A stretch of DNA of 64,000 bases from Hylemonella sp. (GTDB lineage: Bacteria > Pseudomonadota > Gammaproteobacteria > Burkholderiales > Burkholderiaceae_C). A program made the position numbers and the translations under genes. The notes beneath the pieces are model-generated. The model had not been told where the DNA came from. It ran no database searches and was given only the letters and a program-made list of their open reading frames with translations. Below, one piece after another: positions 27,619-32,326 of the stretch. Position 1 is the stretch's first letter. The number at the start of each line of letters is the position of its first letter. Where the stretch lies: contig JAUYQZ010000003.1 of the NCBI GenBank assembly GCA_030695415.1, positions 124,001 to 188,000 on the forward strand. The letters run 5' to 3'.

Positions 27619-28121
27619 GCCGGGTCTCGCCCCGGCGGGCGACTCACTTTCTCTTGCTTCGCCAAGAGAAAGTAAGCAAAGAGAAGGCGAGCCGAAGTCA
27701 GGGCCCCTGCGGGGTACCTTGCGCTGCTCGCATCGGGCGGGGTCGGGCTAAACTCGCTGCGCTCAAACAACGCCCGCCCTGATCCGCCCGCTGCTGCGCT
27801 GCTCAGCCCTGCCACACGGCATAGGGAGCCAAACAGCCGAACCCCACAAGTACGCGCCATGGCGCGTACTTGTTGTCTTTGGTTTTGGCTTTGGTCTTCG
27901 GGCTCCCCCGCCGTCATGAGGAGGCGAGTAGCGCAGAACTGAGCGGATCAAGGGGCGCGCATGTTTGAGCGCAGCGAGTTTGCGCGCACCCCGCTCAGGT
28001 CGAGCAACGCAGCGTGCCCGTAGCGCAGCGGAGGGTCGACGAATCCGGCTCGCCTTTCTTTTGGGTACTTTGCTTTGGCGAAGCAAAGAAAAGTACCTCG
28101 CCCGCCGGGGCGAGACCCGGC
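27619..28121. repeat. Composite palindromic repeat element, copy A
   Basis: About 503 bases between rpoD and dnaE built as nested inverted repeats. Each end has a GCCGGG/CCCGGC hairpin (27619-27636 and 28104-28121) and an AT-richer hairpin (27646-27673: ACTTTCTCTTG/CAAGAGAAAGT; 28064-28097: 14-bp arms, one mismatch). Inside, a 19-mer AAACTCGCTGCGCTCAAAC (27750-27768) recurs inverted at 27963-27981. The centre is a perfect 28-bp palindrome (27846-27873; half arm ACAAGTACGCGCCA). Its left half matches, inverted, the right half of copy B (27691-27840 versus 32016-32163) with fewer than ten differences by eye. No transposase is encoded. The remaining flanks (27534-27618 and 28122-28155) hold nothing I recognise. 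Confidence 0.85.
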
Positions 28122-28155
28122 AAAGCAGCCCTGCCAGCCAGGCAGAGCAAAGAAG

Positions 28156-31100
28156 TCACTCGTAAACGATCACAGCCTTCCCCAGGTCAGCCTGTGCCAT
28201 CCACCCCGCCAACGCCGCATCACTGGGATAGAACTTCGCATCCTCCCCCAGCTGCAGTTCGGCCGCTGCACCCAGCCCCGGCCCCTGGCGGCGCAAGGTC
28301 AGGCGCACACCCAGGCCGCGCAGCAGTTCACCCTGCTCGGTCATCTCGCGTTTCGGGGGATGCTCGGCCACCAGCCGCTGCACGTCGGGCGCACGTCCGT
28401 TGACGGCCACGCGCAGGTACTTGCCGAAGCGGCAGCGCGCGGCCTCCAGGCTCCAGACCTGGTTGATGTTGAGTTGCAGGCCACCGGAGAAACGGTCGGG
28501 CATGACCTTGGCCATGACGATGATGAGTTCGTCGTCTTTCAGCAGGTTGCGGTTGGCGTTCATCAGCGCCTCGTCCACGCGGGCGTCAAGCACGGCGGTC
28601 TTGTCGTCGAGCTTGAACAGGGCCAATTTGCCGCGCTGGCCGTTGATGACCCGAAAATCCGACACGATGCCCGCCAGCAGCTGCGGCTCGCGGGTGTCGA
28701 TCAGGTCGGCCAGCTCGCGCTTCGCGAAGCGCCGCACCTCCAGCGCCACTTCATCGAACAGGTGGCCCGAGAGGTAAAAGCCCACCGCCGTCTTCTCGTG
28801 CGTGAGGCGTTCCTTGACACCCCAGGGCAAGGACTCCACCAGCTCCGGCTCCTGAGTGCTGGCACCGTGGCTATCGTCGCCCAGGTCGAACAGGCCGCCC
28901 TGGTTGACGTTGGCGGCCGTGGCATTGGCGAAGTCGAAGGCGCGGTCGACCGAGGCCACCAGGGAGGCCCGGTTGAGCTGCAGGGAATCGAAAGCGCCGG
29001 CCTTGATCAGCGCCTCGACGCTGCGCTTGTTCAGGCGGGTGCGGTCCACGCGCACGCAGAAGTCGTACAGGCTGGTGAAGGGGCCGCCTTCTTCGCGGGC
29101 TTTCACGATGGCCTCGATGGCCTGCTGGCCCGTGCCCTTGACGGCCCCCAGACCGTAGCGGATGGCCTTGTCGGAAATGGGCTCGAAGCGGTAATGGCCA
29201 CGGTTCACATCTGGCGACTCGAAAGTCATGCCCATCTTCAGGGCGTCTTCGAACAGCACCTTTAGCTTGTCGGTGTCGTCCATTTCCACGGTCATGTTCG
29301 CGCAGAAGAACTCGGCCGTGTAGTGCACCTTGAGCCAGGCCGTGTGATAGGCCAGCAGCGAGTAGGCGGCGGCGTGCGACTTGTTGAAGCCGTAACCCGC
29401 GAACTTCTCCATCAGGTCGAAGACCTCGTCGGCCTTGTCCTGGGGGATGTTGTGGGTGGCCAGGGCACCGGCGCGAAATTTTTCGCGGTGCTCGGCCATC
29501 TCCTCGGCCTTCTTCTTGCCCATGGCGCGGCGCAGCAGGTCGGCGCCGCCCAGCGAGTAGCCGCCCAGGATCTGCGCGGTCTGCATCACCTGCTCCTGGT
29601 AGACCATGATGCCGTAGGTCTCGCTGAGCATCTCGGCGACCGCCGGGTGCGGGTATTCGACTTCTTCCCGCCCATGTTTGCGTGCAACGAAACTCGGGAT
29701 CAGGTCCATGGGGCCCGGGCGGTACAGGGCGTTGAGCGCAATCAGGTCTTCCAGCCGGGTGGGCTTGGCATCGCGCAGCATGCCCTGCATGCCGCGGCTT
29801 TCAAACTGGAACACCGCTTCCGTCTTGCCTTCCTGGAAGAGCTGGTAGGTCGGTTTGTCCTTGAGCGGAATGTTCTCGAAGGCGAAGTTCTCCTGGCCCG
29901 GATGGCGCGCCATGATGAACTCGCGCGCGATCTCCAGGATGGTCAGCGTGGCCAGGCCCAGGAAGTCGAACTTCACCAGGCCCACGGCCTCCACGTCGTC
30001 CTTGTCGTACTGGCTGACGGCCGCATCGCTGCCGGGCTGCTGGTAGAGCGGGCAGAAGTCGGTCAGCTTGCCCGGGGCGATCAGCACGCCGCCGGCATGC
30101 ATGCCGACGTTGCGCGTCAGGCCTTCGAGCTTCTGGGCCAGCGCCAGCAGGGTCTTGACCTCGTCTTCCTTGTCCAGCCGTTCGGCCAGGATGGGCTCGG
30201 CCTGGATGGCGTCGGCAATGGTGATGTGCTGGCCCGGCTTGTTGGGGATGAGCTTGGAGATGCCGTCGCAGAAGGTGTAGCTCATGTCGAGCACGCGGCC
30301 CACGTCACGGATGGCGGCGCGCGCGGCCATGGTGCCGAAAGTGGCGATCTGGCTGACCGCCTCCTTGCCGTACTTGTCCTTCACGTAGTCGATCACGCGG
30401 TCGCGGTTGGCCTGGCAGAAGTCGATGTCGAAGTCGGGCATCGAGACGCGCTCCGGGTTCAGGAAACGCTCAAACAGCAGCTTGTATTCCAGCGGATCGA
30501 GATCGGTGATCTTCAGCGCATAGGCCACCAGCGAGCCGGCACCGGAGCCACGGCCCGGCCCCACGGGGCAGCCATTGGCCTTGGCCCACTGGATGAAGTC
30601 GCCCACGATCAGGAAGTAGCCCGGGAAACCCATCTTCAGGATGGTGTTGATCTCGAACTCCAGACGTTCCACGTAACGCGGCCGTTCGGCATCGCGCTTG
30701 GCTGCGTCGGGGTAGAGGTGGGTCAGCCGTTCCTCCAGGCCCTCGAAGGAGACCTTGCGGAAATACTCCTCGATGCTGAGTCCGCCGGGGATGGGGAAGT
30801 TGGGCAACTGCGGCTTGCCCAGCACGAGCGTGAGATTGCAGCGCTTGGCGATCTCCACGGTATTGGCCACGGCGCTGGGCAGGTCGGCGAACAGCGCCTG
30901 CATCTGCTGGGCGTTCTTGAAGTACTGCTCGCGCGTGAACTTGCGCACCCGGCGCGGGTTGCCCAGGATCTCGCCTTCAGAAATGCAGACGCGCGCCTCG
31001 TGCGCCTCGTAGTCGTCGGGCGTGGCGAACTGCACCGGGTGGGTGGCCACCACGGGCAGCTTCATGCGCGCAGCCAGTTGTACCGCAGCGGCGACGTGGG

Positions 31101-31629
31101 CCTCGTCGTCGGGACGACCGGCGCGCTGCAGTTCCAGATAGAAACGGTGCGGGAAGATCGTCGCCAGTTGCAGCGCCGCCTCGTGCGCGCGCTCGGCGTC
31201 GCCCTGCACCAGGGCCTGGCCTACGGCACCACTGTGCGCACCGGAGAGCGCAATCAGACCCTCGTGCAATTCCTTCAGCCAGGCCAGCTTGACCACGGCC
31301 TGGGCCTTCACCACATTGCCGGTCCAGGCGCGCGCGAGGATCTCGGAGAGGTTCAGATAGCCCTGCGTGTTCTGCACCAGCAGCAGCAGGCGCGAGGTGG
31401 CCAGCAGGTCTTGCCCCAGGCCCTCGAGCATGATCTCGACACCGATCAGGGGCTTGACGCCCTTGCCACGCGCTTCCTTGTAGAACTTGATGGCCCCGAA
31501 CAGGTTGTTCAGGTCGGTGATGGCCAGCGCCGGCTGGCCGTCCTGGGCGGCGGCCCGGGCGATGTCCTCGATACGGACGGTGCCGTCAACGACGGAAAAC
31601 TCGGTGTGCAGGCGCAGGTGGGTGAACAT
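28156..31629 (-). CDS. dnaE: DNA polymerase III subunit alpha
   Basis: The 1157-residue catalytic subunit of the replicative polymerase. The N-terminal PHP domain begins FTHLRLHTEFSVVDGTVRIE. The palm carries the catalytic aspartates in MPDFDIDFCQANRDRVIDYV, and GPGRGSGAGSLVAYAL precedes them. The finger and helix-hairpin-helix parts (GYGFNKSHAAAYSLLAYHTA; AFDSLQLNRASL) are intact, and a C-terminal OB-fold (LLAGIVSDFRVINGQRGKLA) is present. Length and architecture fit the proteobacterial DnaE1 class. The gene stands alone on the minus strand, flanked on both sides by inverted copies of a large palindromic repeat. A TAAAAT box ends 9 bases before the ATG. Confidence 0.97.
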   Translation of the reverse strand: MFTHLRLHTEFSVVDGTVRIEDIARAAAQDGQPALAITDLNNLFGAIKFYKEARGKGVKPLIGVEIMLEGLGQDLLATSRLLLLVQNTQGYLNLSEILARAWTGNVVKAQAVVKLAWLKELHEGLIALSGAHSGAVGQALVQGDAERAHEAALQLATIFPHRFYLELQRAGRPDDEAHVAAAVQLAARMKLPVVATHPVQFATPDDYEAHEARVCISEGEILGNPRRVRKFTREQYFKNAQQMQALFADLPSAVANTVEIAKRCNLTLVLGKPQLPNFPIPGGLSIEEYFRKVSFEGLEERLTHLYPDAAKRDAERPRYVERLEFEINTILKMGFPGYFLIVGDFIQWAKANGCPVGPGRGSGAGSLVAYALKITDLDPLEYKLLFERFLNPERVSMPDFDIDFCQANRDRVIDYVKDKYGKEAVSQIATFGTMAARAAIRDVGRVLDMSYTFCDGISKLIPNKPGQHITIADAIQAEPILAERLDKEDEVKTLLALAQKLEGLTRNVGMHAGGVLIAPGKLTDFCPLYQQPGSDAAVSQYDKDDVEAVGLVKFDFLGLATLTILEIAREFIMARHPGQENFAFENIPLKDKPTYQLFQEGKTEAVFQFESRGMQGMLRDAKPTRLEDLIALNALYRPGPMDLIPSFVARKHGREEVEYPHPAVAEMLSETYGIMVYQEQVMQTAQILGGYSLGGADLLRRAMGKKKAEEMAEHREKFRAGALATHNIPQDKADEVFDLMEKFAGYGFNKSHAAAYSLLAYHTAWLKVHYTAEFFCANMTVEMDDTDKLKVLFEDALKMGMTFESPDVNRGHYRFEPISDKAIRYGLGAVKGTGQQAIEAIVKAREEGGPFTSLYDFCVRVDRTRLNKRSVEALIKAGAFDSLQLNRASLVASVDRAFDFANATAANVNQGGLFDLGDDSHGASTQEPELVESLPWGVKERLTHEKTAVGFYLSGHLFDEVALEVRRFAKRELADLIDTREPQLLAGIVSDFRVINGQRGKLALFKLDDKTAVLDARVDEALMNANRNLLKDDELIIVMAKVMPDRFSGGLQLNINQVWSLEAARCRFGKYLRVAVNGRAPDVQRLVAEHPPKREMTEQGELLRGLGVRLTLRRQGPGLGAAAELQLGEDAKFYPSDAALAGWMAQADLGKAVIVYE

Positions 31630-31638
31630 ATGGATTTG

Positions 31639-31644
31639 ATTTTA
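31639..31644 (-). promoter_or_regulatory. -10-like box just upstream of dnaE
   Basis: TAAAAT on the minus strand ends 9 bases before the dnaE ATG, so the transcript would have at most a few untranslated bases. It lies between the start codon and repeat copy B. Confidence 0.35.
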
Positions 31645-31711
31645 GTAGGCTGGCGCTTGCCCCTTCTCAGGGTTCCTCCTCTTTGGTGCAGCTTTTCCGC
31701 TAGCTTGGCAT

Positions 31712-32286
31712 TGTCGGGATGTGCGCCCGACAGCGCAGTAACTTTCTTTTGCTTCGCCGAAAAGAAAGTCACCAAAGAAAAGGCGAGCCGGATTCGTCGA
31801 CCCTCCGCTTGCGCTACGGGCACGCTGCGTTGCTCGGGATCGGCGGGAAGCGCAGAAACTCGCTGCGCTCAAACATCTGCGCTTCTTTTTCCGCCGCTCC
31901 CTGCGCTACTCGCCTCCTCATGACGGCGGGGGACGGATACCCAAACCCAAGCCCAAAACAACAAGGACGCACCATGGCGCGTCCTTGTGAAGTTCGGTTG
32001 TGGGGTTCTTGCTGTCGGCTGTTTGGTCCCTATGCCGTGTGGCAGGGCTGAGCAGCGCAGCGGCGGGCGGATGAGAGCGGGCGTTGTTTGAGCGCAGCGA
32101 GTTTAGCCCGACCCCGACCGATGCGAGCAGCGCAAGGAACCCCGAAGGGGCCCTGACTTCGGCTCGCCTTTGGCGTTTGCGTAACTTCGCTACGCGAAGT
32201 GAGCAAACTCCCACTCCGTGACCTTTCGGTTACCTTGCTTTGGCGAAGCAAAGAAAAGTACCTCGCCCGCCGGGGCGAGACCCGCC
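31712..32286. repeat. Composite palindromic repeat element, copy B (inverted relative to A)
   Basis: About 575 bases in the divergent gap between dnaE and trhO, with the same parts as copy A in reverse order. The outer left hairpin is TGTCGGG/CCCGACA (31712-31732), the next hairpin ACTTTCTTTT/AAAAGAAAGT begins near 31741. The 19-mer AAACTCGCTGCGCTCAAAC is at 31856-31874 and its inverse at 32086-32104. The central 28-bp palindrome (31961-31988; half arm ACAAGGACGC) has one mismatched pair. An extra hairpin module absent from A lies at 32175-32208 (ACTTCGC/GCGAAGT extended by GTTTGC/GCAAAC). Short open frames across it are not coding-like. The leftover flanks hold the dnaE and trhO start regions. 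Confidence 0.85.
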
Positions 32287-32326
32287 TTGCCACGCAAACA
32301 AACCCATCACGCAAAACGCAAGAAAC

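Follow-up and report, generated by a model that had tools for sequence, protein, structure and literature searches.

Repetitive extragenic palindromic (REP) sequences, bacterial interspersed mosaic elements (BIMEs) and REPINs are small extragenic palindromes that occur many times per genome, often as inverted pairs, and are read as single-stranded DNA hairpins whose bulge and loop give strand discrimination, as set out in the available parts of the literature (PMC8266576, PMC6006769, PMC3733652, PMC3116915). Here we analyze a repeat found as elements A and B in a stretch of 64,000 nucleotides from Hylemonella sp. (assembly GCA_030695415.1, contig JAUYQZ010000003.1, positions 124,001 to 188,000; the window hereafter), which is likewise extragenic, palindromic and multicopy, and often arranged as inverted pairs. 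REPs have a GTAG or GTGG foot, whereas none is enriched here; moreover, the stems of the present repeat vary with compensation while its tip is constant, a pseudoknot often follows, and no examined gene for a REP-associated tyrosine transposase (RAYT) lies near. Because a RAYT linkage was looked for and not found and the GTAG foot showed no enrichment, the repeat, nearest in style to REP/REPIN, is not filed under that family. The fold it carries is real across genomes, with a constant tip, free covarying stems, a dispersed and extragenic distribution and one strand favoured. The explanation that we tentatively prefer, just short of giving it an even chance, is a non-autonomous extragenic element whose working form would be folded single-stranded DNA, read in trans by a putative protein.

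Integron attC sites are recognized by shape as a folded single strand, with variable stems and conserved unpaired features; they bear R and L boxes and belong to gene cassettes served by an integrase. The present element has similarly variable stems with conserved unpaired features, but no integrase family recurs beside its cores (the boxes were not scanned). Integron integrases are also mentioned in the available part of PMC8266576. Another likeness is to the early promoters of phage N4, single-stranded DNA hairpins for the virion RNA polymerase, in that a hairpin with a GNA loop has stem bases that are free as long as pairing is kept. Phage N4 has three such promoters with short stems, whereas the present element is a covarying fold of several parts in dispersed repeats. 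The available text on N4 describes a C(GNA)G triloop with a sheared G-A pair, non-conserved stem bases that are free if the hairpin is kept, and extrusion at physiological supercoiling that depends on G and A of the loop as well as on its closing C-G pair (PMC4496689). The STAXI motif, listed with other candidate structured nucleic acids (Weinberg et al. 2010), is, in the accessible part of its description, a repeated pseudoknot in bacterial DNA too, possibly single-stranded, and differs in having UUCG loops and in sitting by DNA-manipulation genes (PMC2864571); the present cores, in 18 loci, have no match in Rfam at gathering score.

A constant tip on covarying stems

A preliminary description of this DNA had drawn attention to a 19-mer, GTTTGAGCGCAGCGAGTTT, occurring four times in the window. 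All four copies are exact, at 27750-27768 and 31856-31874 on the minus strand and at 27963-27981 and 32086-32104 on the plus strand, while none was expected over 100 shuffles even when 3 mismatches were allowed. Every coordinate given there was correct, and the arms reported around the 19-mers are present as well: CGGGC/GCCCG at 27744-27748 with 27772-27776 and at 32078-32082 with 32106-32110, GGGGCGCGC/GCGCGCACCCC within 27952-27992, and GAAGCGCAG/CTGCGCTTC at 31847-31855 with 31877-31885. The 19-mers are all tips of hairpins (hairpin II), two of which lie in each quasi-palindromic repeat of about 500 bp, and the repeats flank dnaE. Each pair of 19-mers belongs to one quasi-palindrome, A at 27620-28125, between rpoD and dnaE, or B at about 31720-32290, between dnaE and a sulfurtransferase/TrhO-type gene, in opposite orientations. 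Their parts are the following.

27620-28125, no strand: element A, quasi-palindromic repeat of about 500 bp between the 3' ends of rpoD and dnaE; cores face outward, left half on the minus and right half on the plus strand
27750-27768, minus: hairpin II tip (19-mer) of the A left core; mini-hairpin GCGCAGC at 27756-27762
27744-27776, minus: inner stem P2 of the A left core; CGGGC 27772-27776 with GCCCG 27744-27748, read on the minus strand
27643-27690, minus: hairpin I of the A left core; X = TCGCC 27686-27690, T/C-rich linker 27677-27685, stem 27663-27676 with 27643-27656, loop part X' = GGCGA 27659-27663
27620-27635, minus: terminal small hairpin CCGGG/CCCGG at the A left end
27846-27873, no strand: central palindrome of A (ACAAGTACGCGCCATGGCGCGTACTTGT)
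27963-27981, plus: hairpin II tip (19-mer) of the A right core; mini-hairpin GCGCAGC at 27969-27975
27939-27998, plus: stems P1 and P2 of the A right core; P1 CTGAGCGG 27939-27946 with CCGCTCAG 27991-27998, 5' bulge ATCAA 27947-27951
27952-27960 with 27982-27992, plus: P2 of the A right core, GGGGCGCGC with GCGCGCACCCC; on the 3' side, the limit between P1 and P2 is ambiguous
28050-28097, plus: hairpin I of the A right core; X = TCGCC 28050-28054, linker, stem 28064-28077 with 28084-28097, X' = GGCGA 28077-28081
28104-28121, plus: terminal small hairpin GCCGGG..CCCGGC at the A right end
31720-32290, no strand: element B, the same repeat as A, inverted, between the divergent dnaE and sulfurtransferase genes
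31856-31874, minus: hairpin II tip (19-mer) of the B left core; mini-hairpin 31862-31868
31847-31885, minus: inner stem P2 of the B left core; read on the minus strand, GAAGCGCAG 31877-31885 with CTGCGCTTC 31847-31855
31738-31786, minus: hairpin I of the B left core; X = TCGCC 31782-31786, stem 31760-31772 with 31738-31750, X' = GGCGA 31754-31758
31961-31988, no strand: central palindrome of B
32086-32104, plus: hairpin II tip (19-mer) of the B right core; mini-hairpin 32092-32098
32078-32110, plus: inner stem P2 of the B right core; CGGGC 32078-32082 with GCCCG 32106-32110
32164-32262, plus: hairpin I of the B right core; X = TCGCC 32164-32168, X' = GGCGA 32242-32246, 3' stem strand 32249-32262, extra hairpin module inserted at about 32169-32241

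Hairpin II consists of variable, covarying stems, a 5' bulge between P1 and P2 that persists and is mostly purine-rich (GTTAAG, GGATCAA, GGAAAAA), and a tip in which GTTTGAG and CGAGTTT enclose a GNA mini-hairpin. As a stem of 5 bp means little in isolation, the matter was decided by tests across genomes, where the arms of distant carriers of the 19-mer are unrelated and yet pair in nearly every row. For the shuffle tests, 60 of 67 thinned sites were used in two registers and the 7 in other registers were omitted; the registers of the 60 were chosen by pairing with G.T allowed, which favours both pairing and G.T. With a spacer of 3 nt ahead of the tip (29 sites), pairing is found in 93.1% of the 261 cells, compared with 46.8% (standard deviation, sd, 2.5) after shuffling, doubly changed cells number 136 against 41, all 9 pairs are changed on both sides, and sliding by one column lowers pairing to 43-45%. 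With a 2-nt spacer (31 sites), the shares are 90.7% of cells against 45.6%, double changes are found in 139 against 42, and again each of the 9 pairs is altered on both sides; in both registers, none of 500 shuffles reached the observed value. The preliminary description had read a constant tip with differing but pairing arms as a mark of selection on structure and tip, and had named covariation as the check; with that check passed across genomes, its reading is still the best one.

A swapped-arm test with equal register freedom, for which 115 sites were thinned to 74 and which avoids the G.T register bias, gave the same picture: no more than one of 8 positions is left unpaired at 66 of the 74 sites, as compared with 1.4% of swapped pairs. 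Poor pairing was seen at L098 (4 of 8, probably a chance match) and at one L082 site and L134 (5 of 8 each). Measured against the 95th percentile of swapped pairs, 83% of the 115 cross-phylum sites lie above it; in the genus of the window 22% of 49 sites do, the test being weak there because many copies share arms. Sister copies in the genus show compensatory arm changes under a fixed tip (e.g., GAAGCGCAG/CTGCGCTTC and GAAGTGCAG/CTGCACTTC), some P2 arms are wholly different between sister copies, and a few copies (L281, L272) have an uncompensated change.

Cores often stand in outward-facing pairs (minus then plus in 23 of 43 neighbouring core pairs), and pairing between the two halves does not surpass that within the local stems. 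In 24 such pairs, many from close relatives, the weaker local stem equalled or surpassed arm-to-arm pairing in all 24, being better in 13 and never worse. Long-range pairing of the element halves is accordingly not favoured as a conserved feature, and the local hairpin is what is kept.

The genome of the window holds nine long copies including A and B, two half-length pieces and one contig-end fragment, the other long copies being 82-88% identical to A (the 26 match rows include matching of the palindrome on both strands). RNA folding of A and B is far better than that of shuffles (z-scores of -17.7 and -8.8), which is not evidence of function, because any long palindrome folds so. Terminator-like sites number 4 in A against 0.9 in shuffled sequence, and 5 in B against 1.4; no sigma70-like promoter was found in either element (other promoter types were not scanned). 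A perfect or near-perfect central palindrome (ACAAGNACGCGCCATGG...) lies mid-element in both A and B, scores as terminator-like and is present in the elements of several relatives. The extra hairpin module in the right hairpin I of B is missing from A, and a very similar insert occurs in a relative (G013, L322).

The tip, the favoured strand and hairpin I

The preliminary description had seen in the 19-mer an identical, exposed loop. Identity was borne out, but exposure was not, since the 19-mer holds the mini-hairpin GCGCAGC, so that the loop is structured. In the tip, GTTTGA-GCGNAGC-GAGTTT, GC/GC closes a GNA loop, and N is A, C, G or T inside one genome (G031). Rarer tips, with a longer stem, keep GNA or GNNA (CCCGCAGGG, CCCGTAGGG, CCCGGAGGG, CCGCAGG, CCGAAGG, GCGTAGC, GCGCTAGC, GCGTTAGC); altogether, 362 of 366 tips have such a loop, with N free and G-C closing pairs, repeats included and most of them retrieved by the tip itself. 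Downstream of the cross-phylum cores, 21 of 93 triloops in 122 regions are GNA, against 200 of 3537 in a background of 706,550 bases; downstream of the genus cores, these values are 35 of 60 in 70 regions and 50 of 870 in 154,830 bases. The mirror loop TNC was counted 4 times (cross-phylum) and twice (genus), and GNRA tetraloops 3 times and not at all. Moreover, the third base is a pyrimidine in the loops GCTA and GTTA, in a place where the GNRA rule of RNA would forbid it. In DNA, mini-hairpins that combine a GNA or GNNA loop with two or more G-C pairs are described, in the available part of the source, as extraordinarily stable (PMC4686876); by its loop and closing pairs the tip belongs to this class. 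The reversed-pattern control for the tip is not clean, with matches in five genomes, the tip being nearly mirror-symmetric.

Mismatches within the stems were counted on 115 distinct sites of 116 across phyla and on 49 distinct sites of 76 in the genus. In the 30-nt arms of the cross-phylum sites, G.T outnumbers A.C by 97 to 35 and G.A outnumbers C.T by 119 to 18; G.T and G.A are the mismatches that folding of the top strand would allow, and A.C and C.T are their mirror images. For P2 alone, at the 74 thinned sites and with the register set on Watson-Crick pairs only, the counts are 20 to 8 and 27 to 4; a separate count, in which the choice of register allowed and thereby favoured G.T, gave 19 to 5 and 22 to 6. 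In the genus, G.A against C.T stands at 97 to 3 in the 30-nt arms and 44 to 1 in P2. One strand is favoured as the folded strand, and the genus agrees only in part, for G.A/C.T and not for G.T/A.C.

A second hairpin, hairpin I, lies 30-100 nt downstream of many cores, with a T/C-rich 5' strand and an A/G-rich 3' strand. For part of the copies it carries a pseudoknot in which the loop (X') pairs with the strand just upstream (X), as in CTTGAT/ATCAAG, CTTGAC/GTCAAG, CTTGAA/TTCAAG, TCGCC/GGCGA and GCCC/GGGC. On 38 distinct hairpins of the 52 found in 116 sites, counting Watson-Crick runs only, the mean X/X' run is 4.0 against 3.38 (sd 0.12) with swapped loops, a value reached in none of 200 swaps. 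Furthermore, the sequence of the linker follows that of the stem's purine strand in parallel orientation (6.15 of 7 positions against 5.61, sd 0.06, when swapped, 0 of 500; 68 distinct hairpins of the 123 found in 208 sites), which is suggestive of the linker as third strand of a pyrimidine triplex. In three of the five Cellulophaga copies shown (L362, L364, L365), the linker of hairpin I contains a GC-rich insert of about 14 nt, cggccgccgctgcg, which the other two lack.

Weighing the explanations

We regard A and B, tentatively, as copies of a repeat, MITE-like (miniature inverted-repeat transposable element) or REPIN-like, that would conserve the fold of one DNA strand and not a sequence or a protein. 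The strand may fold as single-stranded DNA, exposed at replication or extruded from supercoiled DNA, by analogy with the promoter hairpins of phage N4, which have the same C(GNA)G loop; a putative protein supplied in trans would read tip, bulge and pseudoknot, copy or move the element, and tolerate any stem that pairs. That the folded strand is DNA rather than RNA seems probable, and non-autonomous mobility we hold to be rather likely. The partner, which the preliminary description had left as a protein or an RNA, is better sought in a protein that reads folded DNA, since the evidence leans to the DNA strand.

Several observations weigh against this explanation. The choice of DNA over RNA would rest on loop and mismatch types, and GNA loops occur in RNA too; four of the 366 tips do not fit GNA/GNNA cleanly (TGCAG twice, CTTTAG and one long tip); and in the genus the G.T to A.C ratio is reversed, at 10 to 20 in the 30-nt arms and 1 to 3 in P2. 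Hairpin I was recognized at only 52 of 116 sites, or at 123 of 208 distinct sites under another rule, and is absent by eye in G327, and the X/X' match is poor in some Flammeovirga copies (CCTAGA type). Matched in antiparallel orientation, the linker scores nearly as high (of 60 cases, 17 favour the parallel and 4 the antiparallel match, and 39 are tied), for which reason the triplex is suggestive only. As to mobility, no clear target duplication was seen in the Flammeovirga and Cellulophaga copies, and no empty site with a clear duplication was resolved. Finally, Pfam scans of the flanking open reading frames (ORFs) found no mobilising protein, each family occurring beside the cores at most 3 times among 80 and twice among 81 ORFs; these scans covered 161 of 180 flanking ORFs, the other 19 having been omitted by hand, 15 of them from loci named Burkholderiales.

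The fold, with its hairpin, pseudoknot and triplex, could instead form and act in a transcript, either of a structured non-coding RNA or of an RNA-borne mobile element, with an RNA-binding protein as partner and retrotransposition as the source of new copies; this we judge unlikely while taking it seriously. The excess of G.T over A.C across phyla is what G-U pairs would give, and RNA is well known to form H-type pseudoknots in which a U-rich linker lies along a U-A rich stem (telomerase-type triple helix); yet within the genus G.T does not exceed A.C, and hardly any loop is GNRA, the loops being GNA or else GNNA, whose third base is T in two tips. Orientation to genes is mixed, the sigma70-like promoter scan of A and B was negative, and no core, in 18 loci, matched Rfam at gathering score. 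An origin in mutational bookkeeping alone, with template switching at forks correcting palindromes, no selection on the fold and the tip as the conserved core of a spreading repeat, appears improbable. The elements are quasi-palindromes, palindrome correction by template switching is known in bacteria, and the wholly different P2 arms of sister copies could stem from one template switch. Such correction, however, has no strand preference, whereas loop types and G.A/C.T mismatches are strongly strand-asymmetric and the unpaired 5' bulge persists uncorrected; the mismatch asymmetry and the bulge together tell against mutation alone as the source of the pairing, and the logic of tip, bulge and pseudoknot recurs in distant phyla.

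Just as improbable to us is a host-side element, i.e., a bidirectional terminator or a nucleoid or gyrase site, spread passively and retained in intergenic positions. The surplus of terminator-like sites in A and B is in keeping with it, as is the preponderance of convergent over divergent neighbours (15 and 7 of the 55 sites with both neighbours within 600 bases); nevertheless, B lies between divergent genes, where a terminator would be of little use, a terminator requires neither a fixed tip nor a pseudoknot, and presence is patchy even in the genus, with the exact tip in 13 of 26 genomes. Membership of REP/REPIN proper, with movement by a RAYT (TnpA-REP, Y1 HUH) transposase, is the idea we find hardest to credit, despite a dispersed, extragenic and palindromic repeat in which outward inverted pairs are frequent, as in REPINs and BIMEs. 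Y1 genes occur in 25 of the 26 genus genomes, whether the tip is present or absent, and in 17 of 20 core-bearing genomes; the three without a Y1 match include one (G034) with 17 tips. No GAGCGNAGCGA lay within 1.5 kb of the 50 Y1 loci examined, of 81 Y1 matches, and the GT[AG]G foot showed no enrichment over the 60 nt that precede the tip: the 74 sites contain 29, 25 of them having one, whereas shuffled sequence contains 39.7 (sd 6.0). Y1/RAYT was rejected as an adjacent partner.

Returning to folded DNA read in trans, a wider proposal is that of a cross-phylum class of structured single-stranded DNA elements, with a GNA-capped mini-hairpin on a free stem, a purine bulge and a triplex-stabilised pseudoknot, spread in trans by a putative shape-reading protein; this we put forward as a possibility and with considerable doubt. 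If true, such a class would be the natural counterpart of the DNA aptamer and a DNA parallel to the structured RNA families. Where covariation supports a family of nucleic-acid structures, the family is nearly always taken to be RNA, whereas the present one, in bacteria of several phyla, bears marks of DNA, namely strand-specific GNA/GNNA loops, no gene orientation and no promoter found. Were the DNA reading true, evolution would maintain elaborate single-stranded DNA folds with free stems, and the fixed 19-mer tip would be a direct bait for fishing out the reader protein. The element may also account for a set of unnamed extragenic palindromes.

The preliminary description knew of no named element with such a design, and this stands within the Rfam comparison and a search of the open literature, partly judged from a portion of the matches. 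In Rfam 15, no core matched at gathering score (18 loci), the best sub-threshold match of the window region being sraL, with 26.5 of 39 bits. No description of the element was found in the searchable literature (subscription papers lying outside it), as judged partly by titles and the starts of abstracts.

Distribution and neighbouring genes

In a scan with one genome per species, the exact 19-mer was found in at least 115 stretches of other genomes. Among the matches listed, about eight phyla are represented as labelled (Pseudomonadota, Bacteroidota, Bacillota, Desulfobacterota-type deltaproteobacteria, Nitrospirales, Aquificaceae, Calditrichaeota and Melainabacteria); many carriers are metagenome bins, for which single taxon assignments may be wrong. 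Isolates with the 19-mer belong to at least Pseudomonadota, Bacteroidota and Bacillota (e.g., Ralstonia, Methylophaga, Flammeovirga, Bacteroides luti, Selenomonas ruminantium HD4 and Hungatella effluvii). The element is patchy in distribution: the tip with a free N was present in 10 of 398 Pseudomonadota, counting the genome of the window, and in 2 of 198 Bacteroidota, one of which is the centre genome of that search itself. A phage origin was rejected, as the tip occurs in only 6 stretches of the viral collection, and so was a plasmid-borne element, given that 6 of 72,556 plasmid records match A, none covering 80% of it in one place and none with an annotated feature beneath the match. By eye, roughly one in two of 25 Flammeovirga copies, and all five Cellulophaga copies shown, lie within short inverted ends.

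Genes around the cores have mixed orientation relative to them (upstream, 48 same and 34 opposite; downstream, 40 same and 51 opposite). A common neighbour gene was rejected, as an all-against-all ORF comparison of the 115 loci showed no standout shared gene; the 25 largest clusters were inspected, and the larger ones are, by eye, repeat-derived or common families. Among the 161 flanking ORFs neither an integron integrase family (attC boxes were not scanned) nor a reverse transcriptase family, as a retron, DGR or similar element would have beside it, was recurrent, families occurring once being only partly listed.

At the rpoD site, relatives have differently composed elements, sometimes inverted, or remnants, or none, as read at 14 of 21 loci (the other 7, without a match to the anchor, were omitted). 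In this region downstream of rpoD in the genus (L318-L336), arm composition and orientation vary by species, as would be seen if elements landed or were exchanged here repeatedly. In the draft genomes G027, G039 and G040, some tips lie a few dozen to a few hundred bases from a contig start, and the elements may break short-read assemblies and be under-counted. In Bacteroides luti, all 17 tips of the genome are inside one 58-kb stretch of a contig (G034:C22, L227-L231), and looser matching gives 23 hairpins over about 76 kb, with the strand alternating save at three points; most are of the GTTAAG type on the minus strand and of the GAAAAG/GTAAAG type on the plus strand. Between them lie, by eye, genes or small modules for AAA ATPases, an Abi-like protein, a helix-turn-helix protein with a nucleotidyltransferase-like one, and a VirE-like primase; the stretch looks like a cassette array.

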